From Megalonaias nervosa (Eukaryota > Mollusca > Bivalvia > Unionida > Unionidae): 64,000 bases of DNA. The stretch is from NCBI GenBank assembly GCA_016617855.1, contig JAECUM010001126.1, forward strand, positions 230,531 to 294,530, given 5' to 3'. This document shows positions 19,511-64,000 of the stretch, piece by piece (the stretch's first letter is position 1; every line of letters starts with the position of its first letter). Made by a program: the position numbers and the translations under genes. A model generated the notes under the pieces. The model saw nothing but the letters and a program-made list of their open reading frames with translations. It ran no database searches and had not been told where the DNA came from.

Positions 19511-22253
19511 CTGTGGATTAATTTTTTTATTACACCATCGGATTGTTTAATTATATGCTATCATCAATCTTACCCAAATCCATGTCATATCAATCGTATT
19601 TGTTATTCAATTCTATCTGCCCATCGGACTTGTATTTTGTTTCGGCTCCATATAAAAGCAAAGAAATCACTACAACGCCCAACTAACTAATCAAATAAAT
19701 AGGCAATGATATAAAACACATTTCTAAAAACATCACTATAAAATACTTCATTGTAATTTAAAATAAACCACACTCTCAATACATTTAGAAAGAAATCAGA
19801 GGAATATTTTTATAACGTCATCACAGTGAAGGTATATGTTGCTGTGAAGTACGAAATGAATACTCAATGTGAATAAAAAAGACCTTGCTGTCGTGAAAGT
19901 AGGTTTCAAAAGCATAGAGAAACTTGCACCACACTAACATTTTTATTATGGGTTTGAAATACTGCAGGCAAATTCTTCAGGTGGTTTTAAGAAATTGCCA
20001 CAGAGTGTTGTCTATTTATTATTGTAAACGTATAAAATGTATTACTCAGTAGGAAAATGCTGTCTTATCAACATTATGCCAATTTAATTGCCCGTTATTA
20101 TAAACAGATCATATTATCTTTCAATCTACAACATTTATGCCGAGAAGTTACTAGTGAATCTCTAAGGAAGTTTTAAGATAAATACTATGAAAATCAATAA
20201 CACGACTACCATGATTCACCTCTTGCCAAATCACAAAATGTTGTGACATACTTAGTCTATAAATACAATAACAAAAATTATATTCTAACTGTGCACATTG
20301 AAAAAGTTAGTTTCAAGGATCTGTTCATTATCCATTTATTAATTCAATCATTCACAGTATTCAATGTTTCCTTGTTTTACATGGGAATGATTGTACATGT
20401 AAAATTCTATCTACCTATCTCGGGATGATTTGATCCAAATTTTATTTAAAATATAATTGATGGTTTTATGGTTTAAAATTTGTCTGACCCATCCATAATA
20501 AGCTATCAAAATGTATGCTGTTATGACATACTTCCTTTTTCACATAAATAATCTACGAAGCATTGCATATGCATAACAATTTGACTACATCAAAAATCTG
20601 TGAAGCATCGAGTATGCATAACAGGGTCAATACATCAATAATCTGTGAAGCATCAAGTATGCATAGCAGTGTGACTACATCAATAATCGGTGAAGTATTG
20701 ATTATGGATAACACTGTGCTAAATTAATAATCTGTGAAGCACTGAGTACGCATATCAGGGTGGATTTATAAATAATCTGTGAAGAATCAAGTATTGATAA
20801 CGGTGTTACTACATCAATAATCGGTGAGGCACAGAATATGCATAACAGTGTGACTACATCAACAATATGTGAAGCATCGAGTAAGCATAACACTTTGCTA
20901 AATCAATCACCTGTGAAGAATCAAGTATTGATAACAGTGCGAAAACATCAATAGTCAGTCAGGCATTGAGTACACATAACAAGGTGACTACATCAATGAT
21001 CTGTGAAGCACTGAGTTTGTATAACAGTGACTACATCAATAATCATTGAAGCAATGAGCATGCATAACAGGGTGACTACATCAATAATCTCTGAAGCACT
21101 GAGTATGCATAATAGTGTGACTCAGTGATCGCCCTGGGCTTGACCAATGTCGCAAATTGCGATTTTTTCCTTATTGGCGACAAAAATATACCATCTGGCG
21201 ATCTTTTTGGCGACAACAATTTTCGCTGTTAAAAATTGTATATACAGTCTTGGGTTTGCAGTTGAGAAATTCAAAGGCACCAGCTGCAAGCTTTGAAATA
21301 AATTCTTCTGGAATCTATTGTTACATAAACCAGTCATTTGTTCATACTGACAAACCACGCTAACACAGCATTGTTATATCATAATCTGCTTATCCTGATG
21401 TCTGGCCTTAGTACTCGGTGATGTAATATAACCCAAATAGTCGTGCTACCTGATAAGCAATATTCGACTATCTCTGAAGGCGGGAACGGGAATGACTACA
21501 ATCTATCAGACGATAGCAGTTTTTTTTTTTCATTTTTGAAAAATCTACCAGAAACAATAGTTTGCTGAAACGTCAAAGAAAACTGATTACATTTGAAGCA
21601 TCGATCATTCAGTATATACATATTAAGCAAATGAAAAAAATTTCTGTCTCTGTCAATGTTTTACAATTATTTGATGTTGCCGCAGCAATAACAAACAGGC
21701 ATTTGTTTGGTCCTTCAAAGAGTGCCCTAAGCGGTGCCTTCAATAACACATGAACCTTCATCAAAGCAAGTCGAAGACGTTTGATCAAAGAAAGTCGGCA
21801 ACAAAGTTAAATAAAAGCACTGTCATTTTTCATAGTGATTGGAACATATTTACTGTGCCGTATGTTTCCTGTTTGCGGCAAAAAGTTCATGATTACGATC
21901 GCTACCAATGTCGATTTAAAACCCAAATTATAATTCCAATATTTTGAACAATAGATATCTGGCCATCGAGTTAAATGAAGGTGGGACATCTCGCAAGAAT
22001 GTTAAAACTTTTTAATTTGTTCACATGTTTTCATTTCCCTGTGAATAGCCTCATACCTTTGGTAGCCTCGGCATCATGGTAGTTGTTTCTGGCTGACCAA
22101 AATCTAGGCCAATTTATGTACATGTACATGTAGCATACAAACAACTATACAGCCACGTGCTACTTGGATAATAAATATCAGAGTGTTGTTGTTGTAGGGT
22201 TTAACGCCCTTTTTCAGCACAAGATGGGCTATACATGGCGGCCAGTATAATTG
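19511..22253 (-). other. Intron with minisatellite and old SINE tail
   Basis: Between the TIR and ARM parts. It contains the 42-bp minisatellite (20.55-21.12 kb). Bases about 22,190-22,253 read TTGTTGTTGTAGGGTTTAAC and resemble the tail of another minus-oriented SINE near 50.95 kb. Short open frames near 21.1-21.9 kb have no supported function. Confidence 0.5.
20553..21125 (+). repeat. Minisatellite, unit about 42 bp, about 13-14 copies
   Basis: The recurring unit is TACATCAATAATCTGTGAAG followed by CATTGAGTATGCATAACAGTGTGAC, with point variation and a few shortened units. The repeats are contiguous, without unique spacers, which excludes a CRISPR-like array. The minus-strand frame through it (20,702-20,893) is a repeat artefact. 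Confidence 0.9.
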
Positions 22254-49659: not shown

Positions 49660-50870
49660 ATTGTCTATATGACTGTCTATGTAAGTGTAACTGTCTATAT
49701 AACTGTCTATATCAGTATAACTGTCTATATAACTGTCTATATCAGTAATACTGTCTATATCATTATAACTATGTAAGTACAACTGTCTATATAAGTGTAC
49801 CTGTCTATATAACTGTCTATATGAATATAACTGTCTATATAACTGTTGATATAAGTATTACAGTCTACATAAGTATGACTGTCTATATAATTATAACTGT
49901 CTATATCATGATAACTGTCTGTATCAGTGTAACTGTCTATATCATTATAACTATGTGAGTATAGCTGTCTATATCATTATAATTGTCTATATAAGTATAG
50001 CTGTCTATATACGTATAACTGTCTATATCATTATAACTGTCTATATGAGTATAACTAATGTAACTGTCTATATGAGTATAACTGTCTATATTAGTATAAC
50101 TGTCTATATAAGTATAACTGTTTATATAAGTACAATTGTCTATACAGTTATAAGTGTCTATATAACTGTCTATACCATTATAACTGTCTATATAAGTATA
50201 GCTGTCTATATCATAACTGTCTACATAAGTATAACTGTCTATATATGTATAACTGTCTATATAAGTACAACTGTCTATAGAAGTATACCTGTCTATATAA
50301 CTGTGTATATAAGTACAGATGTGTATATAAGTACAACTGTGTATATAAGTACAACTGTCTATAGAAGTACAACTATCCATATCATTATAACTATTTCATT
50401 ATAACTGTCTATGTAAGTATAACTGCCTATATAAGTACAACTGTCTATATACGTATAACTGTCTATATAACTGCCTACATAAGTACAACTGTCTATATAA
50501 GTATAACTGTCTATAGAAATATAACAGTCTATATAAGTACATCTGTCTATATAAGTACAACTATCTATATCATTATAACTGTCTATATAAGTACAACTAT
50601 CTATATAAGTACAACTGTCTATATCATTATAACTGTCTATATAAGTACAACTGTCTATATAACTGTCAATATAAGTATAACTGGCTATAGAAGTACAACT
50701 GTCTATAGAAGTATAACTGTCTATATAACTGTCTATATAAGTACAACTGTCCATATAAGTACAACTGTCCATATCATTATAACTGTCTATATCATTATAA
50801 CTGTCTATATAAGTGTAACTGTCTATATAAGTGTAACTGTCTATATAAGTATAACTGTCTATATAAGCAC
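49660..50870 (+). repeat. 1.2-kb minisatellite built on AACTGTCTATATAAGTAT
   Basis: About 65-70 diverged copies of an 18-bp unit (AACTGTCTATATAAGTAT), with shortened 12-bp forms (AACTGTCTATAT). Because the unit is a multiple of three and stop-poor, both strands give long open frames of the type YIDSYTYIDS or ISITVYISI, which are not genes. Confidence 0.95.
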
Positions 50871-50949
50871 ATCATCAGCCATTAAAGTAGCATGAACCAT
50901 TCCATTTTGTAATGTGCAACTGTTGTAAATTCAGATATTGTTTTGTCTA

Positions 50950-51203
50950 GTATTGAAATCTATTGTTCTTGTTGTCGTTATTGTGGGCTTTATGGCATTT
51001 ATCAACACACAATAGCTACTCATGGTAGCCAGTATAGCTGGTGGAAGAAGAACCACTGACTCACAGGGATGCTACTGGCTTTCTCACATTCCCACATTAG
51101 CAAAGACTGAGACTGGAACCCACATGGACAGAGGTGAGATGGCAGTGATCGGTAAAGAGAAACACATTAGGCCACTCAGCTGCCATGGGGCCTCTCGAAA
51201 TAT
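50950..51203 (-). mobile_element. tRNA-derived SINE (eroded)
   Basis: The minus strand starts GGCCCCATGGCAGCTGAGTG, has GTGGGTTCCAGTCTCAGTC as a worn B box, and ends with a tail-like AACGACAACAAGAACAATAG. Its 3' part resembles the remnant near 22.19-22.25 kb. Confidence 0.55.
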
Positions 51204-54200
51204 GAAGATACCGATATGCAAGACAAACTACAAAATAACCTAATTTATTAATTTTTTTTAAATTACTAAGATAAATACTGGAAATGTATTGCTCTTGATT
51301 AAGATTAATTAAAACACCCAAACCATGTGCAGGTTCCAAGCTCTACACAGCACATATTGCTCAGGTCACTTATTCAACAAGCTTAATGCACAAAACATAT
51401 AGTTGAGATAGTAGTGAAAGGCAACTTTAATTATTACAGTTTAAGCACAAAGCAATCAGTCTGTGTTTCCCAAGTTCTGTTTCATTAGGCTGACTCAATC
51501 TGAAACACCATGTTATATATTTTGAAACACATTACTTTTCAGAGAAAATGAAACTGAAGAATAAAAAGCCAAAGACCAATAATGCAAATTTGGCATTTGT
51601 GACAACCTTATGTTATGTATATTTAATGGGTATTTGTTAGTTTTCTCCATGATTATAAGTTATAATAGTGTTTTGTACTTGACCTTGTGCAAAATCAAGT
51701 TCACTGTGTTCCTGACTAGAGATAGTGGTGATGATTTTATTTTGGTAAACAAATAATACATAGCTAATATTTTTATAGAATTGTGAGTTCAATATTATGA
51801 TCATAATCAATAGAAGTAAATATATTCATTAGGGTCTGGGTTGTAGTTATTTGAATTCTCCCACAAAAATACCTAGCCACATACTTATTATAATTTTGGC
51901 AACAGATTTTATCTTGTTGACAAACTCAGAATCTTCTAGAATGGAAAATTTCATTAAGACATTGTATTTCTAGAAACTGCTGTTTGTGACCAATTGCATG
52001 GAGAAGGATTATAATCTAGTTAACGTAAAAAATTACTTATTCCTGCAACAACATCTGAAGCAGTAATTAGTCTTATTGTTGTGTTCAGTATTTGATTTGG
52101 ATTTATTTAATTAATCAAATTATTATTCACTTGAAATACAAAGTGCACATCTATAATATTCTTGGACAAAGACCTTAACTGAGAATTATAGTGAATTCAG
52201 CCAAGGACATCTTAAATCATATTGTGATTTACTAAAAGACTGTTTCACATCACCATGTCACAGGCCACTACAGACACATCAGCACCTCCAGTGCTGGATC
52301 TTATTTTGAATACCATTAAAATTTAATTAGAACTTTGTTCATTAGGACTGGTGATAGAACTCTGTGGACTATTTTGGGATTTAATTCGCATTACTGTAAG
52401 TTCTTTTCAAATTTTCACTAAGTTTGTATTCAAGGAAAATAAATTATTTGTTGAATTTTACAAAACTTATTAGATTATGCTCTTTTCTATTACTTAGATT
52501 AAGGCCATGGAGTCAAAATACCTGGAAGTCAAGGGTACACTAGCTGGTAAATGTGAATACAAAGCCATGCAACACTGCATCTTCCAAATAATATACCTGC
52601 ATTTGTTTCCTTTTAGATGTGATCAGTATATAACAGACATCAATGGAGCATCTCAAGATTTCAGTGTTTTTAATGCAGATCAAGATTCTGTACAAATAGA
52701 ATGAAGAATGTATACAAGTTTCTTCTGAAGTGTCAAGATAAAAATAAATAAACAATAATTATGCAGCTGTCAAGATGATTTATTATGAATTGTTTTCAGT
52801 ATTAGGAGTGCAACATCACATCAGAATATTATTCCTGTCAAAACAAACCAATCTAAATATGTTAATAGTGTCTACAGTTGAAGTCAGGTGAAAAATATTC
52901 TGTTCAAAGATCAAATACATTATTTTATAAATTCCCATTCATTCCCATTATTCTGCTGAAAGACAAATATTTTATAAATAAACATAATATTGAGTACCAA
53001 CTGCAAACACAAACATAAACTGGAAGGGATTTGATTCTTTTAATCATTTTCAACCAACATGTTACTCTACACTGACAATTAACTCTTTACCTTTTGAAAG
53101 TACTAAGTGATACCAATGAAGCCTGCTAAACTGCCTGCCTTTCTAGCAGCAGTTTGTAGGCTAAACCCCAGTGCAAACATAATGGCTACATGAGAGCTAA
53201 CTGAACTAGTACACATTATGTCTACATTTTCTATACCAATCTTGTCCCATGCAAACTATGTAATTTAATGAGAAATAAAATTTTAAACACTCACCAGAGT
53301 TTATTCTGGAATTTGCATTATAATGAAAATGACATGTAGTCCGTGAAATGCCTTAATTTTTGCAACTGTTGTAGGTGACCACTTCAGATCAGGCTTCTCA
53401 CAACTTTGTTTTCCAGCATATCTGTTCATTTCAGCTACCAATGACTGGAATATTTCTTTGGGAAAGAAATGTAAAAAGAAATTTATCTCCCTTGCATTTT
53501 AATCGAAGTGAAATGCTAGCCCTGAATCTGCTGTGCTGGCCACATGTACTGGACCCACGTGTTCCGACAATACAAGATCATCACATGTTTCATCTTCAGA
53601 TTCAGATAAATCTGAAATGCCAGGTGTCAAAATAGGATTTGTACTAATGACTGATCCTTCATCTTGAATCTGATCATTAAAGTCAATGTAAATTTCATTT
53701 TTATCACTTTCAAATTATTCAAAACTTTAGTCAGAATTGTCTCAATACATGAATGTTGCCATGCTGTTTCACTTTCACAAATGACCTTGTTTTCAATGGA
53801 AATTCCTGCTTATAGTCTGTAAAACTACTCACAGAACACTTTCATCGTTTTATGTAAGGACTATTTTCACTTCCTAAAAATTGTTAAAAAGACTGGATGT
53901 TTGCAATTTCGTCCAATGCAAAGCTTTAATATGAAATAATGATATGCATCTCTGGGGTTTCCCAACCTTGGCCAGAAATGCAAGAATGAGTCAACAGGGA
54001 CAGAGAGAGTAATGTCATAAACTTGTATATGCATCTCTGGGAATGCAAGGCTATTTTTAGTGTTGCAAATATGCATTAGCAGAAAGTAAAGAGTTAATGT
54101 TATTCTGTGACACTAGTATTTCACAGAATGAACTAAGATTCACAGTTAAAAAAATTAATTTTGGTCAGGAATGTGAAGTAGAAGTCACTTATATTTAAAG

Positions 54201-54690
54201 GTTTGGAATTTAGACTTCAGAGGAATATTTAAAAGAAAAACAGTTTGTTCAATTTAAGTAGCAAAATGAAACCTTAAAATGTACACAAATGAGGATAAGC
54301 TTGTCATTTGTCCAAAAGCAGGGCCAGAGAGCTACAATCTTGGGATAATAAGCAAAAGATAAAAAGTTATATGATTGTAAATGCAACCAATAAAAATATA
54401 ATCAGCAACTTGTACAATATTTATATGACATGAAAATCAAATCATCTATATATGTTTAACAACATGACAAATTTCATTGGTCTATCTTTAATGGTTTCTG
54501 ATAATCCATGCTAAGGTTCATGTAAAAAAATAAAAAGAGTCCAATTACAAAAAGTTTAAAAATGTATATAAATATACAATTTGCCATAATGTCCTGAGAC
54601 TCTATTCAGAATACATTAATATAAATAGAATGTGTTTATCAAGTTTCATATGTCAAGCTTAAGTTGATCTCAATCATGCTCAAAAAGCTT
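51204..54690. other. Non-coding stretch, no gene supported
   Basis: AT-rich DNA with short frames only. On the minus strand around 53.5-53.65 kb an acidic-serine segment (SDLSESEDETCDD) is reminiscent of transposase N-termini, but no transposase body follows. No defined repeat otherwise. Confidence 0.5.
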
Positions 54691-55149
54691 TTTTAAAACA
54701 CAATTCCAGACCCAAAAGTTTTTAAACATTGTAAATACAAATCGAAAAAGTGCTGGAAAGGTCTGAAAATCTAATCAACTTATTTACATATCAATGCCTA
54801 TAAGTGTGCCAAATTGTATTTGTCAGCCACAAGTGATTTTTCCGTATCACACATACAAGGTTTTGTTCCAAAATATTCATATCCCCCCAAAAAGACCAAA
54901 TCAGTACAAACAAACCAAAAGACAAAAAGAAGGAAATATTGTTTAAATGGCCTGTAAATCTAATCGGGTAATCTAAATATTACAATGATTAAGCGTATCA
55001 AATTGAACTGTCTACTTCAACTCATATTTGCTTTAGTTGTGTTGGCAAATGTTTTAAATTCTATAAAACTTTATTAAAAAGCTTTTATAATGATCTGAAA
55101 ATCTAATACCACAAATGATACTGCCAAATTTCATTTAGCTCTCTTATAA
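54691..55149. repeat. Dispersed repeat, copy 2, interrupted by the viral element
   Basis: Bases 54,800-55,149 match 1-345 nearly colinearly, and 54,691-54,785 resembles 2,230-2,340. The match stops at CTCTTATAA, exactly where the palindromic terminus of the viral element begins, whereas the sister copy continues. This marks the integration point to within a few bases. Confidence 0.8.
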
Positions 55150-55151
55150 GC

Positions 55152-55325
55152 AGCAGCAGAGAGGGTGAACCCTACAACTTTGTAGAGACCTTATTTTTGA
55201 AAATTAAGGGTTCCTACGAAGGCTGAAAAAAAAACATTTTTGCCTTAATAATGAAAACTTCTTTAATTGACCAGATTTTTTCACAATCTGGTCACATACG
55301 TATGTCATTCACCCTCTCTGCTGCT
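55152..55325. repeat. Palindromic terminus of the integrated viral element
   Basis: AGCAGCAGAGAGGGTGAA at 55,152-55,169 is the exact reverse complement of 55,308-55,325, enclosing a 174-bp unit with a smaller inner stem (GACCAGATT / AATCTGGTC at 55,269-55,293). It lies between the interrupted host repeat and the stop codon of the packaging ATPase gene, so it is either the element's terminal repeat folded as a hairpin or a small MITE inserted exactly at the end. Elements with protein-primed polymerases replicate from terminal inverted repeats; the opposite terminus is outside the window. Confidence 0.65.
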
Positions 55326-55332
55326 ATGATTT

Positions 55333-56009
55333 TTATCCAAATATTATATCAAGTCCATTACGATATCTTGACCTAGGATCATGTAAATTTATTGTTACAA
55401 AACCAAAAGGAGCAGCTTGTGCTTTTGAAAAGAAATTTTTAAATTTGTTCATGTCCATGTCGCCTGAACACCAAGTATAATAAATATTTTGCAGCGTATG
55501 ATTATCTACTCCGTTGAACACAACCAAAATATTACAGTTGTCTCTGATTACTTTTGGAATTTGTGCATATCTCTGTGTAACATAAATCACGTCTGTATTT
55601 TTATGTCTACCTCGTGAAAATATTCTAGCTGGATTTGATTGTTTGTCCAGCATAACATCATCATACACTACTAAAGTATTAATGAATCCATGAGGGCCAG
55701 TGGCCCTGAGATCATCTACAGATGGCGCTTCATCAATATCAGTAATAAAGTCTATGACATTGTCTTCATGTAACGATTTTGCTTTTTCATTAAAATCTTT
55801 AAGTACTTCGTAACATCGCTGATCATCTACAGATGGCGCTACTAAATACAATTTATCCCACTTCAGCCATGCATTATTAGATTGAGCAATAATTGCGTCT
55901 TCCCACTTCCAGATGGGCCTATTATAATCATTCTGATAGAATTCGGAAGCGCTGGATGGTGTTTTACTGGTTCTTGTTTTCGTGTCGCAGAAACGTCAAT
56001 TATATCCAT
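55333..56009 (-). pseudogene. Packaging ATPase (FtsK/HerA, A32-like), frameshifted
   Basis: Pumps viral DNA into the capsid in Polinton/adintovirus-like and other double-jelly-roll viruses. The start ATG at 56,009 opens a 48-codon frame with Walker A GPSGSGKT at residues 31-38, ending at a TGA at 55,863-55,865. The rest of the protein lies in another frame (from about 55,880 down to 55,333): Walker B LVVYDDVM, then VTQRYAQIPKVIRDNCNILV, the usual sensor/arginine-bearing segment. One frame change thus splits it between Walker A and the body. About 225 codons overall, the usual size. It is the terminal gene, its stop only a few bases from the palindrome, and it diverges from the PLA2 gene across 12 bp. 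Confidence 0.9.
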
Positions 56010-56021
56010 ATAATAAATAAT
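56010..56021. promoter_or_regulatory. 12-bp divergent intergenic promoter region
   Basis: The start codons of the ATPase (minus) and PLA2 protein (plus) are separated by only ATAATAAATAAT. With both ATGs this reads CATATAATAAATAATATG, almost a palindrome, so core promoter elements of each gene must overlap the other's leader. That transcription starts here is inferred from the layout. Confidence 0.5.
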
Positions 56022-56537
56022 ATGAGTCTATATTGTGTTCGATGCAGAGCACCTACCGATACTACTGAATTAACGACAGTAACAACAAAAAATAAAAGAC
56101 GTGCACTTACAGGCAAGTGTGTGAAATGTGGCACCAAGAAATACAAATTTGTCTCCATGACTAAGTCAGGAACAAAGACAGGTGGTGATATAGCCACTTT
56201 ATTAGAAAAATTACCAGGAACTCTATGGGCTAAATATCCCGGTGAGAAACATTTACACGGATATAATTATTGTGGCCCAGGAACTCGTCTCGATATCCGA
56301 CTCGATGATCAAGATCAACCAAAACCAGGAGAGTATCCAGTAAATAAGATCGATCAAGCGTGTCACGTTCACGATGTCGCGTATAAAAGTAAGGATTTGC
56401 AACACCGACATCTTGCGGATGTGAAATTGATTCACGTGTTAAATTCTATACCTAATAAATCTCTCAGAGAAAAATTAGCTAGTTTCCTAGTAAAAACTGC
56501 TATGAAAGGTAAACTAGTGTTAGGGGCTGGCAATTAA
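56022..56537 (+). CDS. Zinc-ribbon / phospholipase A2 capsid-associated protein
   Basis: 171 residues from the ATG at 56,022. An in-frame ATG at 55,893 exists, but the region before 56,022 overlaps the ATPase gene and shows no family signal. Residues 5-8 (CVRC) and 33-36 (CVKC) form a DUF5679-like zinc ribbon. Residues 80-137 carry the parvovirus-type PLA2 signature: calcium loop YCGPGT (83-88), catalytic pair His117-Asp118 in HVHDVAY, and Asp133. In parvoviruses this enzyme sits in the VP1 unique region and opens the endosomal membrane; adintovirus-like elements carry similar proteins. The frame is intact and ends in TAA, which stands out among broken neighbours. It is followed 16 bp later by the integrase. 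Confidence 0.9.
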   Translation: MSLYCVRCRAPTDTTELTTVTTKNKRRALTGKCVKCGTKKYKFVSMTKSGTKTGGDIATLLEKLPGTLWAKYPGEKHLHGYNYCGPGTRLDIRLDDQDQPKPGEYPVNKIDQACHVHDVAYKSKDLQHRHLADVKLIHVLNSIPNKSLREKLASFLVKTAMKGKLVLGAGN

Positions 56538-56553
56538 TTATATAACTATCATA

Positions 56554-57534
56554 ATGGAATCTGTTTATTATTCCCCGAGAGGATTCTGGAGAGGTAAGGC
56601 AGCGATTAGTAAACTCGCCGAAGCAGCAAAAGTTTCACGTAATGTTGCCGCATCATGGTTAGCACGACAGGCAATATGGCAAATCTTCCTAAGTCCACCT
56701 AAAAAAATTCATTACGCGCATTTTGATGTTAGCGTTCCTAATGAAGTTCATCAAGCGGATATACTGTTTTTACCACACGATACCATTAAAACACGTGGAC
56801 GAAAATCACGCACGTACAAATACGCGTTAACTGTCGTTGATATTGCTAGTAGATATAAAGAAGCGGAGCCATTATCAATGAAAACAGCATCCGAAGTTGC
56901 ATCTGCGTTCGAACGAATTTATCATCGAGGTGGTCTACGATGGCCAAAACTACTACAGGTTGATCCTGGTAAAGAATTTCTTGGAGTAGTATCATCGTTG
57001 ATGAAGAAACATAACGTTAAAATCAGACGAGAACATACTGAAATTCATCGTGATCAGGCAATCGTTGAACGATTTAATAGAACACTTGCTGAGCGGTTAT
57101 TCGGATACCAATACGCAAAGGAAATATCTACTGACCTCAAAGATAGATCTCGTGAATGGGTTGCAAGATTACCGAGTGTGATAGTTGCGTTGAATAATGA
57201 AATTACTCGTGCAACTTCCATGAAACCTTCTAATGCGATCAAAAAAAAATATATACCCAATGGTTACGGACGACATGAATAGTTCTCTCAACCAGTATTA
57301 GGTAACGTAACTGTAAGATATTTATATGAACCCGGCGAACTTGAAGGCGGTAAAAAAAGAGCAACCGATCCTATTTGGAGCGTGACTACACATAAAATTT
57401 CTAGCGTAGTTAGATCCACTGGAAGACCTGCCATATACAGACTAGATTCTACTGCCCCTCAACGCGGATTTGTACGTGAACAATTGCAAATAATTCCTGA
57501 GGATACGCAATTACCACCAAGCTCAATTTTGTAA
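56554..57534 (+). pseudogene. Retrovirus-like DDE integrase with an in-frame TAG
   Basis: Inserts the element into host DNA. The first 242 codons hold an N-terminal helical part (ISKLAEAAKVSRNVAASWLA) and the rve catalytic core: Asp69 in HQADILFL, Asp137 in QVDPGKEF and Glu172 in IVERFNRTLAE, with 34 residues between the last two. A TAG at 57,280-57,282 stops it. The same frame then stays open for 83 codons to a TAA at 57,532-57,534 and has the C-terminal VRYLYEPGELEGG block found in Polinton integrases, so the stop truncates the DNA-binding tail. The 3' end overlaps the HNH part of the opposite-strand fusion gene by 12 bp. Confidence 0.9.
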
Positions 57535-57790
57535 ACGTTCAGAACCTCGACGTCGATTACAATCAAGACAAGTCAGCATTACATTTTCACGTGTATGACC
57601 AAGATCACTATTAATTCTGTCTACGGTAAATTGTCTTGGATTCGAACACTGCCATAACATATTACAGTTGCAACTTGCGCAATTATTATTCTGTAGTTCT
57701 TTTAGTTTTATAATAAATTCAATATCAATATCAAAATCACGATTATTTTTTTTGTCACACTGCTTATAACCAGATAGTTTTTTCTTATTA
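57523..57790 (-). pseudogene. HNH nuclease module at the end of the PolB-helicase frame
   Basis: In a frame different from the helicase, the minus strand reads NNNCASCNCNMLWQCSNPRQ, FTVDRINSDLGHTRENVMLT and CLDCNRRRG, ending in TGA at 57,523-57,525. Two CxxC pairs around a V-D-R-I-N ... H-T-R-x-N-V-x-L-x-C-x-x-C-N core are the mark of a Cys4-type HNH endonuclease. There is no start codon of its own between it and the helicase, and the frame switch falls at a six-A run (57,778-57,783). It therefore looks like the C-terminal domain of the large polymerase-helicase protein, or a separate gene that has lost its start. Its role might be genome processing or competition. Confidence 0.75.
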
Positions 57791-58918
57791 CGTCATTATT
57801 AACAATTTGATCATTATTTTCTATAAAATTCATAATAACCCTATGTAGTTGAGATATTCTCCTGACCCTAGAAACTGCGAGATAAACTAAATTCGACCAT
57901 TCGATCCGATCATCTATAATCCAGATTTTAGTATCAGTTATAGTTAATCCCTGTGACGAGTGAATCGTTATAGCGTATCCTAACGTCCACGGCGATTTAT
58001 TCATATTCAGCGCATTCTCAACGACATTAATATCGACTAAAATATCATTCAAGACAAGATTCTGTACCCTTGGTGGAACCAAGGCACCTGGAATTTCAAC
58101 ATCAATATTCTGTCGTCGAGTATCTGAGGGGCGATAACACAAAGGTACAGGTAGATCTGAAAACTTTTCTTTATGTAACAAAAATAATTTATCCTGTAGT
58201 TCATCACGAACTATTTTTCTACTCGCGACTATTAAATCAGCGGGATTCCATGAAGTCCAAAATTCATTCATAGAAGTCTCTGGAATTACTCCTCGCATTA
58301 TCTCACATTGTACTCTGTCTGGCTGAAGTCTGATTAATCTTTTAAATGCCTTCAGCGGTTCATCGATAGCTCTATGGTCATCATTTATTTCTTCATAATA
58401 ATCTACATTATTCTTTAGCCATTCATGTGGAGACTGTCCAACAAAGGGTGGTGGTTGACCATGATCGCCGCACATAATCACAGCAGTATTCTTTGTCAAT
58501 AACCATTCAAGAAATGTTTTTAGTGTTTCTAACGACACCGTGCATATCTCGTCCCATATAATATATTAGGTATATATTTTTCACCCATCCGCGATGGAGT
58601 CCACGTGTCTCCGCACCATCTGAAGAAACTATGGTATGTGCACGATTTTACTCCTCGTTGCTTTATTTCTCTAGCAAGTTTATGTGTAGGTGTCAAAACA
58701 ATTATATCCGAATTATTATTTATAAATAAATTAATTACACGAGTTGTTTTACCTGAACCACCACACCCATTAAGATAAACAGTCTTATGTCTAGATACAG
58801 GATCATACACAGATGGTGCAGATGACTTTAATATTTGATTATTATTTTTGTAATATGTCTCCACAATTTCAACATCGGCAGATTCAGAATAACTAAATAT
58901 ATTTTCTTGTTTTATTCT
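57708..58918 (-). pseudogene. SF1 (Pif1/RecD-like) helicase part of the fusion gene
   Basis: This continues in the polymerase frame directly after the TAG at 58,919-58,921, with no intergenic space. Motif I is GCGGSGKTTRVI, and motif Ia is VLTPTHKLAREI. The first frame ends at 58,529. The second (57,708 to about 58,560) carries motif II (just at the switch), motif III GDHGQPPP, motif V IHSSQGLTI and motif VI VYLAVSRVRR. The frame change lies in an AT dinucleotide run at about 58,555-58,570, at Walker B. The motifs fit SF1B helicases related to Pif1 and RecD2. A helicase joined to PolB would couple unwinding and synthesis. Confidence 0.85.
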
Positions 58919-60940
58919 CTATGTCCCCCATTCACCATTACCGAGTTTTAATAAATCCTTATATTTTTTATGTACATAAAATGAATCCGTAGCGACTCTG
59001 ACGGCGTAACGGGGAAATTTATTTATCATCGATAGTAGGTTTATCGAAACATAAGCTAACATCGAAGATCTTAAATGAGTAAATTGTGGTGAGTCGCTAT
59101 CAAGGTAGCTCACAATGGTACCTAGTTTCGTTCCATCTGATAAATAAGCATTACATCTGTTTATAAACGTATTTTTATCAGTTGTATCAGCGATTATAAA
59201 ATCTAGTTCAGCGTCGTCCATAATCAATCTTGTACACGCTCGTTTATAATCGTATGAACCATCTTGAGTAAATTTACCGATTATCTTTCTACCGAGATCT
59301 TTTGTAAATTTCTCATCGTATTCGTTTCTGCATTTGTTTATTTTAATAATATGATCTTCATCAATATCAGGGAATTCTTTTCTGGTATCATCGATATTAA
59401 ATCTGTTCGGTTCTGGTAACCAAACTTGTTTCTGTGAATTATACGATATAATCGCTTCAGTTACTCTCAACGATATTAAAAATCCAACGTCAAGCATATA
59501 TCGCAATAGTACTATTGGAACCCAACATCGCTCTGAAAAATGTCTTCCAAACCAAGCATAAGTAATCGGATGGAGATTTTCTGCAAACTCGAATAATTCT
59601 ACATGAGCAAATCCGGTTAAGTCAAAATCTGGTAAATGTCCGTTTATCGCAACCCTGGTCATGTCATGTGTAGGATGTCCTAATCTCTTAAAGTAGTTAG
59701 AACATACTCCATATCCAAGAAAACTCCCAGGATAACACGCTACCATATCAACCGAGATAACATCACTATGGTTGTATTTGGTGTTCCATAACCCACCGTG
59801 ACCATATTCTATACAACTTTTCTTGACATCTTCAAGGAATTCCGATCGTGTCGTTTTCCATGAATTTTTCTCCTGAGCGAAATGGGCAGCAACCGATGGT
59901 ACGGTAAAGCAGTTATTCAGTAATTGTCCAACTATGACATCATCAGAGGTATATTTCAATGCCAGATGTTCCATTTCTTCATGGAGAGATTCTGTACGAT
60001 AAATATCACCGTTAGGCCGTACAAACTGATCATAATGATTATATTCCGAACTCTGAAATAACCAAACAGACACAGGGTCGCTTTTGCTGATATTTTTAAT
60101 AAAATCAAAGATATCACCGTTATAAAACTTAACTTTTCTATCTCGTGGAAATATCGTTACAGCATTAGTCCATGCGTGTGCATTATGATCAACGATTGTT
60201 ATAGGGTTTCCATTTTTTATATATTTTGGTTCGTATAATATCTCTCCGGTTAGTGTTTTTACTGTTATTGGAAATCTTAATAACTTTTCTAGGTCAGTAA
60301 CATCCTTAATAGATGCACCAGCATCTTTAATGGACTCTGCCCATTTGTTTATTTTTTTACGTCTTAAATCAGTTAAACCATTACCACGAATCGCATTTGT
60401 AAAATGTTCTGTAGCTCGTTCAGCTACGCAGTTTATTCTTGATATTTTCATCGGTTTCAGATCCGCAACATTAGGTTTATCATTCAGCGGAAATATTCCA
60501 TATACAACTGCAGTTGCTGGATAACTCTGTATATAGTAGGGTTTATCAATGCCAGTAAGTATTCCGGGCTTAGATTTATTACTCAAAAGAACAATATTAC
60601 CCCCGGGCTGCACACGGACTCGATCACGCTTATCACGAATAATCCAAATATCTTCTTCTGTATTTACAATAAATTTTATTAAAATAAAATATTTTTGATT
60701 ATCAAGGTGATTAATAATTACTTTTTCTCGTTTATCATTCATCATATTAGTAACATTTCCAACTCTGAATGTTGACCATGCATGAACTGCACCATCGTCA
60801 CGAAATTCCTTTTTTGCTTCACGAATACGTTCGGTTACCATTAATGCCAGATCCTGCATCGAAATACTAAGTTTATATTCTGATAGTCTGTCAAGGTCAA
60901 ATCTAGCAGGGGAGGGTTCAATAACGGATAATTCCTCCAT
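58919..60940 (-). CDS. Family B DNA polymerase, protein-primed type (N-terminal part of a fusion)
   Basis: 673 codons open from the ATG at 60,940 to TAG at 58,919-58,921. Motif A is SVDMVACYPGSF with Asp398, a motif-B-like RKIIGKF is at 551-557, and motif C is VATDSFYV with Asp652, giving the order and spacing of organellar/viral pPolB. I could not identify convincing 3'-5' exonuclease motifs in the first 390 residues, which include a long unassigned region (for example VDHNAHAWTNA at 250-260). In this family a thumb-like segment follows motif C, whereas here the frame stops 20 residues after it. The same frame continues open beyond the TAG, so the stop probably truncates a longer protein. 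The gene diverges from the zinc-ribbon gene at 60,987. Confidence 0.9.
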   Translation of the reverse strand: MEELSVIEPSPARFDLDRLSEYKLSISMQDLALMVTERIREAKKEFRDDGAVHAWSTFRVGNVTNMMNDKREKVIINHLDNQKYFILIKFIVNTEEDIWIIRDKRDRVRVQPGGNIVLLSNKSKPGILTGIDKPYYIQSYPATAVVYGIFPLNDKPNVADLKPMKISRINCVAERATEHFTNAIRGNGLTDLRRKKINKWAESIKDAGASIKDVTDLEKLLRFPITVKTLTGEILYEPKYIKNGNPITIVDHNAHAWTNAVTIFPRDRKVKFYNGDIFDFIKNISKSDPVSVWLFQSSEYNHYDQFVRPNGDIYRTESLHEEMEHLALKYTSDDVIVGQLLNNCFTVPSVAAHFAQEKNSWKTTRSEFLEDVKKSCIEYGHGGLWNTKYNHSDVISVDMVACYPGSFLGYGVCSNYFKRLGHPTHDMTRVAINGHLPDFDLTGFAHVELFEFAENLHPITYAWFGRHFSERCWVPIVLLRYMLDVGFLISLRVTEAIISYNSQKQVWLPEPNRFNIDDTRKEFPDIDEDHIIKINKCRNEYDEKFTKDLGRKIIGKFTQDGSYDYKRACTRLIMDDAELDFIIADTTDKNTFINRCNAYLSDGTKLGTIVSYLDSDSPQFTHLRSSMLAYVSINLLSMINKFPRYAVRVATDSFYVHKKYKDLLKLGNGEWGT

Positions 60941-60986
60941 ATAACTAAAACAAATATTTAAATTAAAATTTTATTATATATATATA
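60941..60986. promoter_or_regulatory. Divergent promoter region with TATATA motif
   Basis: 46 bp between the PolB start (minus) and the zinc-ribbon start (plus). The plus side ends TTATTATATATATATA directly before ATG; the minus side reads TTTTAGTTAT before its ATG. The TATATA tract touching the start codon recurs at 61,291-61,305 and, on the minus strand, at 62,285-62,300. Confidence 0.5.
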
Positions 60987-61292
60987 ATGATTGAAACACA
61001 AAACAAATGTGCTTGGCTCAAAATTGGATATACTTCTACTTGTAATAAATCGTGTGTGAACAAATACTGCGGAAATCATGCACAGAGTATCAAAAATGGA
61101 AGTACAGGACCAATACCGTGTGTGAAATGCGGTGTTGGAGTCAGAGAAAAAACTCAATTGTGTCTAAAATGTGGCGGAAAAAAATATAGAGAACTAAAAC
61201 GATATTATGACAAAAAAAATAACACTGACTCTCCTATAAAGACAGAAGAAGATTATCTGGTTAGATTTCAAAACAATGATTTAGACAAATAA
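60987..61292 (+). CDS. Small cysteine-rich zinc-ribbon protein
   Basis: 101 residues with two Cys clusters: an N-terminal CAWLKIGYTSTCNKSC...YCGNH set (residues 8-31) and a C-terminal CVKCG ... CLKCGG pair typical of a zinc ribbon (residues 45-64), then a charged tail. The pattern predicts a metal-binding, perhaps DNA- or RNA-binding, regulator. I know of no assigned function. Intact frame, TATATATATA right before its ATG, lying between PolB and an HNH gene on the plus strand. Confidence 0.7.
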   Translation: MIETQNKCAWLKIGYTSTCNKSCVNKYCGNHAQSIKNGSTGPIPCVKCGVGVREKTQLCLKCGGKKYRELKRYYDKKNNTDSPIKTEEDYLVRFQNNDLDK

Positions 61293-61305
61293 TATTATAT
61301 ATATA

Positions 61306-61796
61306 ATGGAGCAAAACGAATTTGTGGCGCATCCTATAATAAAAAATTATGAAGCATCTCGAGATGGTGTTATTAGAAACTGTAGATTGAAAAACCAGTA
61401 GGTAGTATTAATAATACTGGTTATCTTGCGTTTACTGCTAATGGCAAGAAAAATTATTACTCACATAGATTTACATACGAGTGTTTTTTTGGAATAATCA
61501 AAGATGGGTATGTGGTGGATCACATCAACGGCGATAAGCTTGATAATTCACTTGGAAATCTACGTATTATCACGCAAAGTGAAAACTGTAAGTTTGGAAA
61601 CACTGGCGGGGCACGATTTGCAAGACCTGTTAAATCCGTAAATGCAGATGGTGAAGAAATTGTGTTCAAGTCAATTAATTCTGCTGCCAAATATTTTGAC
61701 ATAGTACCACCTTCAGTACAATACGTGGCAGAAAATATACGGAAATCTGCCTTTTCCAAAAGATTATTGCAAAAAATAAATTTTCAATACGTTTAG
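61306..61796 (+). pseudogene. HNH endonuclease with NUMOD1-like tail, frameshifted
   Basis: The frame from the ATG at 61,306 (MEQNEFVAHPIIKNYEASRD) ends at a TAG at 61,399-61,401. The remaining part, in another frame up to TAA-type termination at 61,796, reads YYSHRFTYECFFGIIKDGYV, then VDHINGDKLDNSLGNLRIIT, an HNH_3 core (H-I-N-G-D...N...L-R). It closes with KSVNADGEEIVFKSINSAAK and YFDIVPPSVQYV, a NUMOD1-like DNA-binding helix-turn-helix. The shift lies near an A5 run (61,390-61,394). Such free-standing homing-type nucleases are common passengers in large DNA viruses and phages. Confidence 0.85.
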
Positions 61797-61847
61797 TCTA
61801 CCGTATTTTTAATGTTACCAAATGATTACTTGATACCTACTGAAACG

Positions 61848-62284
61848 TTAATTTTCCCAAGGGTTTTGTTTAGCCATAATTACAGTCACTGACTCTATCA
61901 GGGGTTCATCTTCACCGCTCTCAGCATTGACAGAATCAGATAGCATAATCTTTCTTAATTGCATTACACGATTATCCACAATCTTTTTCTTTCGTACTCG
62001 TGAGACAGTTCGGATTTAATATTTTCGATAGAACGTGCAAGAGGTGTAAATAGCTTTACCTGATTGTCGTTTACCATGGCTAGTGATTCAAGCATGGATT
62101 GATAAATTAATTTTATAAATCTGTAGTTTGAAGATAGTGTATATTTATTATCAAATTTTCTTTGTTGCAGTAATTCAAAATCGCACATAATTTTCTGAGG
62201 GTCGAGATTATCAGATATTTTTATTCCGTTATGTTTTAGTTTTTTAATAGCACAGATAATATCATTAATGTTTTCTTGGTTCAT
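61848..62284 (-). pseudogene. Unknown viral protein, frameshifted
   Basis: The ATG at 62,284 opens 106 codons (MNQENINDIICAIKKLKHNG ... ANVNDNQVKL-type helical, lysine-rich sequence) ending at 61,964. Past a T5 run on the plus strand (61,984-61,988) the alternative frame continues with MQLRKIMLSDSVNAESGEDE and ends at TAA 61,848-61,850, giving about 145 codons in all. Highly charged and helical, with an acidic C-terminal part. No domain recognised. It has the TATATATATA stretch before its ATG, like its neighbours, which supports it as a real viral gene. Confidence 0.6.
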
Positions 62285-62318
62285 TATATATATATATATT
62301 TTATATTTAATATAAAAA

Positions 62319-62715
62319 TAAACAAAAATATACAGCGCGGGGTGACATTCGGTCTACCATTCCATAGTTGTATCAGATAAACCTAATGAGGTTCCGAATC
62401 TTTGTTTAGACATTTACCCCCAAGAGACCCCTAAATATCCGTAACCGAAACTTTAGAGGCTCAGAGGGTTGTCTGTACGTGTAGGTCTTATTTGTGACCA
62501 ATCAGATTCTGTTTATTGTTGCCTTACAAGAATTCCTAGATATCCGTAACCGAAACTCTAAGAACTCAAAGGCTGATTGGTCTTTGTGACCTGGAATCTC
62601 ATTAGGTTTATTTTTTGTTTGCGATTGTGTCTTTTGGAATGGCCCCTGTGTGGGGTACCCCTTTAGTGAAGTCACAAGGTCACGACCTCATATCACCCCC
62701 CGCTGTATATTTTTG
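62319..62715. mobile_element. MITE-like inverted-repeat element inside the viral region
   Basis: The ends CAAAAATATACAGCG(C)GGGG and CCCCCGCTGTATATTTTTG are inverted copies. Further in, AAACCTAATGAGGTTCC pairs with GGAATCTCATTAGGTTT. Two internal direct repeats share ATATCCGTAACCGAAACT. No coding potential. It occupies the space between two viral genes. Confidence 0.7.
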
Positions 62716-62996
62716 ATGAGATGATATGATGATGAGATGATGATGATGATGAAATGCCGTCTTCACGCCAGCACACCAACCCATAACGATCAACCAATGG
62801 GTTATTCACAAAAGTGAATCCACCACGTGTTGACGTAGTGGATTGGTGTACTCTGAAGACGGGGGTGGCTGGAGCCCCCAATAAATTATAAATTTTGGCA
62901 TAAAATCGCCCCCGCAGATAATTTATCCTTCTTGGGTTTCGAACCATGACCCTCCGGATGAGAGTTTCTACACGCTATCAACTGAGCTATCGGACC
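62716..62996 (-). mobile_element. tRNA-derived SINE inserted between viral genes
   Basis: On the minus strand GGTCCGATAGCTCAGTTGAT (A box) and GGGTCATGGTTCGAAACCC (B box) form the 5' two thirds of a tRNA-like head. The expected 3' acceptor strand does not pair, so this is not a tRNA gene. A body follows, with a TCATCATCATC tail at 62,712-62,760. The open frame at 62,693-62,947 is SINE sequence. Confidence 0.75.
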
Positions 62997-63359
62997 TTGT
63001 TATAAATACATATTGAAAAAGTTAGCATGTGTTTACCAATAACCTTAGCTTAACAATTTGTCAGTCATTCCTAAAAACTACAATATTCTCTAACAAAAAC
63101 CATATTTTCTGTCTAAAATGAGATTTTATAGTTTCCAAAATATATATAATTCTGTATAAAACTGAGTCTATGCGTGGGCTGTAACAGCGGATATTGATTT
63201 AGTTATAATATATAGCGGTCTTAAAATAACTTTACGCACAGTTGTTATGGAATAATCAATATGCAGCCACAGCTTTCTAGATTTCATTGTGCACGGATTT
63301 TATGTAAACAAAAGAATAAACATCCGGATATTGTTATAAAAACGCATTATGATAACGCT
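62997..63359. other. Gap between SINE and structural gene
   Basis: AT-rich, without a defensible gene. A 34-codon plus-strand frame (63,261-63,365, starting MQPQLSRFHCARILCKQKNK) is open but too short to assign. Confidence 0.4.
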
Positions 63360-64000
63360 CTATGAGCGTACATACAGGTTTATATTCAGTTCTTCGTTCC
63401 TCGTGTCCAGAATTCTATTATTTTGGGCTGTAAGTTTGAAATTTATTCTTGTCAGAAATGGATTATGAACTCGCAGGTAAACGGGATTAATTGGTTCAAT
63501 TACGATTAACCACCCTGGTGGGGCCAACGGGCTAAAACTGAATAATATGTACCCTTGCTCCGCAGTGCCACTGCGGTGGCTAGATTTAGAAAGATCTACC
63601 TGATAGCTACCTTCAATAACATCGCATACCAGATTGACTGCAATAACTGATGTTATGTTTACAATACATGGCGATATATGTCTACCGGCACCAAAGGGGT
63701 TGTTATTGTGTTTTAGTATAACCGGTGGTGGGGCTATTTTTTTCCACGATTCAATTACTCCCGGATAATATTCTTCAATAAGATTACTTAATGATTTCTT
63801 CATTTCAGCGTTATTTAAATCTGATATAACAAATGTTTGTAAATCTTTTTCTGTTATTTTATAATGATTAAGAAATACTTGTTTAGATTCTGGATTTGTG
63901 TAACGATTTCCATCGAATTTAGTCGCAGTGTTTATAATACTTCGATTGACGATGTATAAATCGAATAGGATACCATTTAAATGTTTTATTGACTCGATTA
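63360..64000 (-). CDS. Probable viral structural protein, 5' part outside the window
   Basis: Open frame of at least 213 codons that runs off the right edge. An in-frame Met at 63,803 is internal, since the frame is open and similar in character upstream. The sequence is helical at first (KITEKDLQTFVISDLNNAEM), then has beta-rich, proline- and glycine-containing stretches (IAPPPVILKHNNNPFGAGRH; YILFSFSPLAPPGWLIVIEP). The end, INFKLTAQNNRILDTRNEEL then NINLYVRS, is like the closing strands of jelly-roll capsid or fibre proteins. By position in a Polinton-like genome a capsid, penton or fibre protein is expected. The exact identity is an inference. Confidence 0.6.
   Translation of the reverse strand, partial: IESIKHLNGILFDLYIVNRSIINTATKFDGNRYTNPESKQVFLNHYKITEKDLQTFVISDLNNAEMKKSLSNLIEEYYPGVIESWKKIAPPPVILKHNNNPFGAGRHISPCIVNITSVIAVNLVCDVIEGSYQVDLSKSSHRSGTAEQGYILFSFSPLAPPGWLIVIEPINPVYLRVHNPFLTRINFKLTAQNNRILDTRNEELNINLYVRS

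Follow-up and report, generated by a model that had tools for sequence, protein, structure and literature searches.

We propose that the 64,000-nucleotide stretch of Megalonaias nervosa DNA analyzed here (hereafter the window) very probably holds a decayed copy of a Polinton-type element, and that the replication protein of this element is a single multidomain polymerase-helicase-HNH enzyme. From the N terminus, the enzyme would consist of an N-terminal part, a vOTU-like region, the palm of a protein-primed family B DNA polymerase (pPolB) without a full exonuclease, a Pif1/RecD-type superfamily 1 (SF1) helicase and an HNH nuclease domain. Four observations support this directly: many relatives carry the domains in a single protein, conservation extends to the key residues, purifying selection has acted on the coding frames, and, of the three breaks that interrupt the gene, the first two are found in the window alone among the loci read.

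The replicase unit in the window

The polymerase open reading frame (ORF), on the minus strand, encodes 673 amino acids from ATG to TAG (Table 1), and the first helicase piece, of 129 amino acids, follows directly after the TAG in the polymerase frame. A first-pass annotation of this DNA had read the polymerase frame as running on into the helicase with neither a gap nor a start codon, and the frame indeed continues in this way, as there is no ATG before Walker A and the first methionine of the helicase piece lies far behind it, at about residue 111. The second helicase piece is in another frame and HNH in a third, the last change of frame sitting at a run of six A residues, so that helicase and HNH are separated by just the homopolymer frame change that had been described. 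Measured from 60,940 to 57,526 across the three breaks, the replicase unit comes to about 1,138 codons, in agreement with the earlier estimate of about 1,140.

Many relatives carry the three domains in one protein

Three protein searches were pooled, one with the polymerase piece, one with the helicase-HNH portion of the relative P0002, and a third, giving 75 proteins in all. The polymerase piece alone, searched against candidates of about 370-1,178 amino acids only, retrieved 19 proteins at E <= 0.001; the best four, P0001-P0004 (979-1,176 amino acids), are 55-59% identical to it over 99-100% of its length, and helicase domains are present in them. With the P0002 query, for which the best 7,989 candidates of about 647-2,058 amino acids were scored, 57 proteins were found. 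Motif C of the polymerase and Walker A of the helicase stand together in one protein in 54 of the 75 and are joined by HNH in 41, among them the unbroken P0002 (1,176 amino acids) and P0003 (1,168 amino acids). Uninterrupted three-domain proteins, which the first-pass annotation expected if the fusion were genuine, thus exist. Under strict patterns, all nine markers occur in order in 20 of the 75 proteins, at lengths of 1,065-1,268 amino acids. A single-sequence profile detects HNH in 46 of the 51 proteins that have the C-terminal part of the helicase (the exceptions being P0001, P0057, P0061, P0063 and P0071), always in the same position near the C terminus, 10-62 residues (median 23) behind the helicase, and this includes the Elysia and fungal proteins.

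Assignment of the domains

The N-terminal piece of the helicase is recognized by Pfam, and the HNH domain only weakly (E 0.16 in the window, 0.082 in P0002); the polymerase and HNH assignments are based on motifs, relatives and fold. Across the aligned relatives the catalytic positions are nearly invariant. With the polymerase motifs placed by eye, the motif A Asp is kept in 51 of 51 and the motif B Lys in 52 of 53, and at the vOTU-like place, a region recognized by its motif alone, the Cys is present in 44 of 44 and the His in 45 of 49. The HNH positions are likewise conserved, and the fold matches to HNH are individually weak. The phi29 polymerase aligns to the structure model from its own residue 52, at model residue 271. 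Since the first exonuclease motif of phi29 polymerase lies before residue 52, it falls outside the aligned range.

Genomic copies, decay and selection

The host assembly (2.19 Gb in 54,709 contigs) contains at least 136 matches to the helicase piece, the 136 having been scored out of 19,361 first-look candidates. We read the replicase gene at 68 loci, which represent 65 places because three were fetched twice. Where the window has its TAG, one of the 68 loci shows a stop, 66 show a sense codon and one shows a gap, and none of the 67 other loci has gaps at the alignment columns of the window's helicase gaps. Of 20 loci chosen for their long frames, eight can be read through polymerase and helicase without interruption, in a frame of 1,047-1,156 codons; in two of these, one motif pattern each is missing. 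By alignment, four of the 50 fully covered loci, or 12 of the 68 when partial ones are included, are free of both frame-shifting gaps and stops before the helicase/HNH junction; this count is probably stricter than that of open frames, since differences in loop length are scored as gaps. Most copies have therefore decayed.

Selection was measured pairwise among 45 loci with A-run lengths of (6,8), as the ratio of non-synonymous to synonymous substitution rates (dN/dS). The values are 0.17 for the N-terminal part, 0.16 for the palm, 0.20 for the helicase and 0.25 for HNH (codon bootstrap 0.11-0.53). Read in its other two phases, the HNH region gives 0.85 and 0.73, with bootstrap ranges of 0.41-2.00 and 0.36-1.78 that overlap the HNH range, and for the 22 codons of the out-of-frame tail the ratio is 1.32, within very broad limits (0.32-11.99). 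Variants present in at least three copies divide into 112 synonymous and 58 non-synonymous in the helicase, and into 15 and 15 in HNH. These shared-variant counts place HNH between the helicase and unconstrained sequence, and full constraint on HNH in the six-A copies is unsupported. The substitution patterns suggest that HNH is probably constrained, maybe less than the other parts.

Points against, and alternative readings

Several observations weigh against the reading of a Polinton-type element with a single polymerase-helicase-HNH enzyme. Pfam finds no family in the 673-residue polymerase piece, and no polymerase family in the window piece and the eight relatives scanned. The first Asp of motif C (again placed by eye) is absent from all 51 rows with letters at this position, where A stands in 48, V in two and T in one; such a change was earlier taken as inactivation, whereas PMC11071308, in the portion available to us, predicts enzymes of this kind to be active. 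Walker A is present in 8 of the 19 polymerase-piece matches and absent from 11, most of which stop within the palm or in odd tails. P0016 and P0017 reach the start of the helicase, while P0008 and P0009, on contigs of 124,546 and 43,414 bases, stop at one shared place just before it. A small separate helicase gene could be missed, because the P0002 search covered proteins of the size range given above. HNH is in frame in just 2 of 64 readable junctions, in a sample that is biased as described below. As for the element as a whole, none of the 22 arm pairs listed for 50,000-64,000 is recognizable as terminal inverted repeats marking its ends, no terminal protein was identified, and the contig ends exactly at window position 64,000, cutting the element there.

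The most serious alternative concerns the last domain, and we regard it as possible though doubtful: HNH could be a homing-endonuclease passenger of the replicase gene with no role in replication. An origin by intein invasion has been suggested for the GIY-YIG and HNH domains of the Tlr1-like helicases, to which we return below (PMC11071308, the part available to us); the element also contains a free-standing HNH_3 gene of the homing type; and the shared variants suggest that HNH may be under less constraint than the helicase. Against a passenger stand an HNH kept behind the helicase in Elysia, fungi and all but five of the 51 proteins, and a dN/dS near that of the helicase. Of the five exceptions, P0071 is distantly related and longer, P0001 stops as soon as the helicase is complete, and the other three (P0057, P0061 and P0063) finish either where the helicase does or in unrelated sequence, as would be expected of gene fragments. 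A widely kept and probably constrained C-terminal HNH bears on whether this domain is a passenger or a part of the replication machinery.

Under our main reading, that of a single polymerase-helicase-HNH enzyme, the general course of replication can be sketched. The replicase would use protein priming to initiate synthesis at the termini of linear DNA, and the vOTU-like region may cut off the priming part. The palm would then synthesize DNA as the helicase joined to it unwinds the duplex in front, offsetting what seems to be a reduced exonuclease, and HNH could nick or trim element DNA, for example at branched ends. A bolder version, which we think unlikely, holds that these proteins are an undescribed animal and fungal clade of pPolB joined to SF1 helicase and HNH (pPolB-S1H-HNH) whose HNH is a fixed and functional component. 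If this were true, such a polymerase-helicase-nickase could make its own openings in the element DNA, and protein priming would no longer be the sole means of initiating or resuming copying by strand displacement.

The junction between helicase and HNH raises a different alternative, namely that the HNH-bearing form is a minor product of programmed -1 ribosomal frameshifting. In the helicase phase the six-A run reads A AAA AAC, with the HNH frame at -1, and A AAA AAC is a canonical slippery heptamer. Consistent with this, the (6,8) state is found in 45 of the 64 readable loci (42 of 61 places), HNH retains its low dN/dS among these very loci, and P0001, the tree neighbor of the window polymerase, ends in ...DIVKKN without HNH, the end that the shifted state would produce. 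Frameshifting was favored at first, and was dropped after the bias of the query was recognized and then tested with 17 extra copies and an equal-chance subset. The query behind the 64-locus sample held the out-of-frame tail, and so ranked six-A copies higher; a permutation result obtained with that sample (2 in frame against 13.5 expected, with 0 of 20,000 shuffles as low) is a sampling artefact. In 17 further copies, whose match ends before the tail, HNH is in frame in 15, 11 of them by script and four by eye. The script read 11 as (7,8) and one as (7,9); of the five that its pattern missed, four are in frame and one has a longer second run, as judged by eye. The equal-chance subset, intended to let copies of either kind be listed with the same likelihood and the least biased that could be formed, comprises copies with a helicase-core score of at least 557.5 bits, the scores of the 17 being estimated and up to two unread copies perhaps belonging to it as well. 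Among its 30 members, the window excluded, 16 are in frame, seven are of the -1 type and seven of the +1 type, so that the fused in-frame state is the commonest. Moreover, the loss of any one base from the in-frame run produces the heptamer automatically, no stimulating RNA structure was found at the junction (z 0.47 and 0.76), and the shared variants of HNH are evenly divided whereas those of the helicase are mostly synonymous. Other A runs of the replicase gene also vary in length, though less. We therefore consider programmed frameshifting very unlikely; the shifted states look like ordinary homopolymer slippage, and the third break like a run-length variant present in some copies.

Finally, it is scarcely credible that polymerase, helicase and HNH are separate genes whose joined look is due to copy decay: the three breaks in the window, the end points of P0008 and P0009, four short HNH-only proteins and searched length ranges that hide some separate genes all speak for it, but the contigs that carry the HNH-only proteins are 514-1,158 bases long, the residues upstream of HNH in P0075 resemble the helicase end by eye, the stretch from TAG to Walker A lacks an ATG, single-frame copies exist in the genome, and the single-frame relatives refute separate genes for the clade. 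As candidates for the relatives with separate domains that the first-pass annotation allowed for, P0008, P0009 and the four HNH-only proteins came to light, beside many single-frame proteins; the ends of P0008 and P0009 may reflect decay, the limits of gene models, an intron or true gene ends.

The surrounding element

The neighborhood of the replicase gene is Polinton-like, with a packaging ATPase, a phospholipase A2 (PLA2)-like protein and a retrovirus-type (RVE) integrase (Table 1).

Table 1. Features of the replicase gene and its neighborhood, in window coordinates.
Feature	Position	Strand	Remarks
Polymerase piece	58919..60940	-	N-terminal part, Cys/His region of vOTU-like type, probably reduced exonuclease region, palm of protein-primed type; TAG end
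Helicase piece 1, Walker A	58529..58918	-	Pfam AAA_19, E 6.1e-6; Walker A sequence
Helicase piece 2, Walker B to motif VI	57708..58565	-	Residues past the six-A run are the out-of-frame tail
HNH nuclease domain, C-terminal part of replicase	57523..57792	-	
Six-A run, helicase/HNH boundary, site of third break	57778..57783	-	Length differs among copies
Second A run, eight A	57746..57753	-	Length differs among copies
Packaging ATPase piece	55333..55995	-	Pfam Pox_A32, E 6.1e-6
DUF5679 and phospholipase A2-like protein	55893..56537	+	Pfam DUF5679, E 3.2e-11; Phospholip_A2_4, E 4e-11
Retrovirus-type integrase core (to 57,282)	56554..57534	+	Pfam rve, E 1.6e-7; 31.9 bits, just short of the 32.6 cut-off
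Free-standing HNH_3 (I-HmuI-like) homing-type endonuclease	61386..61796	+	Pfam HNH_3, E 1.3e-13
C-terminal part of a protein of about 493 amino acids in copy L070 (L070:1705-3186)	63360..63998	-	ORFs paired by eye

The segment 57,283-57,534 (+) continues in the same frame directly after the integrase stop; it has no Pfam match and is placed by position alone. The HNH_3 gene adjoins the replicase and is unrelated to the fused HNH, and DUF5679 is joined to a parvovirus-type phospholipase A2 domain in one small protein. The protein at 63,360-63,998, for which Pfam gives no match above cut-off, is probably structural and may have a capsid role. In a 6-kb stretch beside the copy L070 there are ORFs with the look of a structural module, which in Polintons comprises a double jelly-roll major capsid protein, a minor capsid protein and an Ulp1-like protease. 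These ORFs gave no capsid match and no Pfam match above cut-off, the protease showing up as Peptidase_C5 at E 0.023, below it. Elsewhere in the window are a 1.2-kb tandem array at 49668-50867, with about 71 copies of an 18-base unit, and a 45-base tandem repeat at 20542-21122 with higher-order periods of 134 and 179 bases.

Clade and hosts

The named sources of the relatives are Sinanodonta woodiana, Elysia crispata, Diversispora epigaea, Gigaspora margarita and Racocetra, which we take to be a bivalve, a sea slug and, for the last three, mycorrhizal fungi. The Sinanodonta woodiana protein, P0006, is a 561-residue model that stops after Walker A. A tree was built from 31 rows, namely the window piece and 30 of the 75 proteins. 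In it the window piece groups most closely with P0001 (96/92), and both fall in a six-row set that also includes P0002-P0004 and Sinanodonta (100/100) and is separate from the fungal and Elysia sets; the tree program flagged P0071 and Sinanodonta as long branches. The distinct clade that the first-pass annotation had thought possible is borne out to this extent, the relatives forming a clade that is distinct in sequence. A polymerase-helicase relative, 43% identical, was also seen on a 3152-base contig (L069) binned to a Diapherotrites archaeon, a contig that is probably mis-binned eukaryotic or viral DNA. As far as our searches reach, the clade, its hosts, its high copy number and an HNH that is widely kept and probably constrained look new, and the many naturally unbroken relatives are available for study. 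Because Pfam detected no polymerase family in the window piece or the relatives scanned, replicases of this kind escape its polymerase models, and elements recorded as lacking a polymerase may in fact have one.

Comparison with known systems

A packaging ATPase and a PLA2-like protein are also carried by animal Polintons and adintoviruses. These share the RVE integrase with the window element as well (PMC11071296, PMC10120064, both in the parts available), and differ from it in that the window element has a fused replicase. The closest counterpart of that replicase lies elsewhere. The available part of PMC11071308 describes the Tlr1-like helicases of polinton-like viruses (PLVs) and transpovirons as fusions of vOTU, palm and SF1 helicase, with a C-terminal GIY-YIG or HNH according to the PLV, and treats those with a changed motif C as active pPolB-S1H enzymes by prediction. 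The three-domain architecture, considered notable in itself by the first-pass annotation, has thus already been published. The likeness extends to the palm, the SF1 helicase and, in some members, the C-terminal HNH or GIY-YIG, as well as to the replaced first Asp of motif C, and probably also to the vOTU-like region and the lost or reduced exonuclease; Tlr1 itself also has an RVE integrase, according to the portions of the sources available. Judged by these features, the window replicase most likely belongs to the Tlr1-like helicase (pPolB-S1H) group, and because the changed motif C of that group is also present, it is not an ordinary Polinton pPolB to which domains have been added. P0071 (1,727 amino acids), a distant palm-SF1 helicase protein that continues for about 400 residues past the helicase with no HNH match, was retrieved by the P0002 query at 31% identity (E 1.7e-28) and may be a bridge to other PLVs.

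Other fusions are arranged differently. In OmPLV, a polinton-like element of the dinoflagellate Oxyrrhis marina, SF1 helicase and pPolB also form one protein, of about 1,500 amino acids, with the helicase at its N terminus and a complete exonuclease, whereas the order in the window is palm, helicase, HNH; the same source gives Tlr1 as a truncated pPolB-helicase-GIY-YIG (PMC12721341, in the part available). Protist elements with helicases fused to an unknown domain appear in the accessible text of PMC10120064, and that of PMC3671162 and PMC4642659 supplies the context of Tlr1 and the transpovirons. Compared by description, the window replicase and its relatives differ from the Tlr1-like helicases in host, their sources being the 2.19-Gb genome studied here together with the named bivalve, sea slug and mycorrhizal fungi. 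In this context, a polymerase-helicase-nuclease fusion known from protist elements and the transpovirons of giant viruses is extended to the genomes of animals and mycorrhizal fungi.

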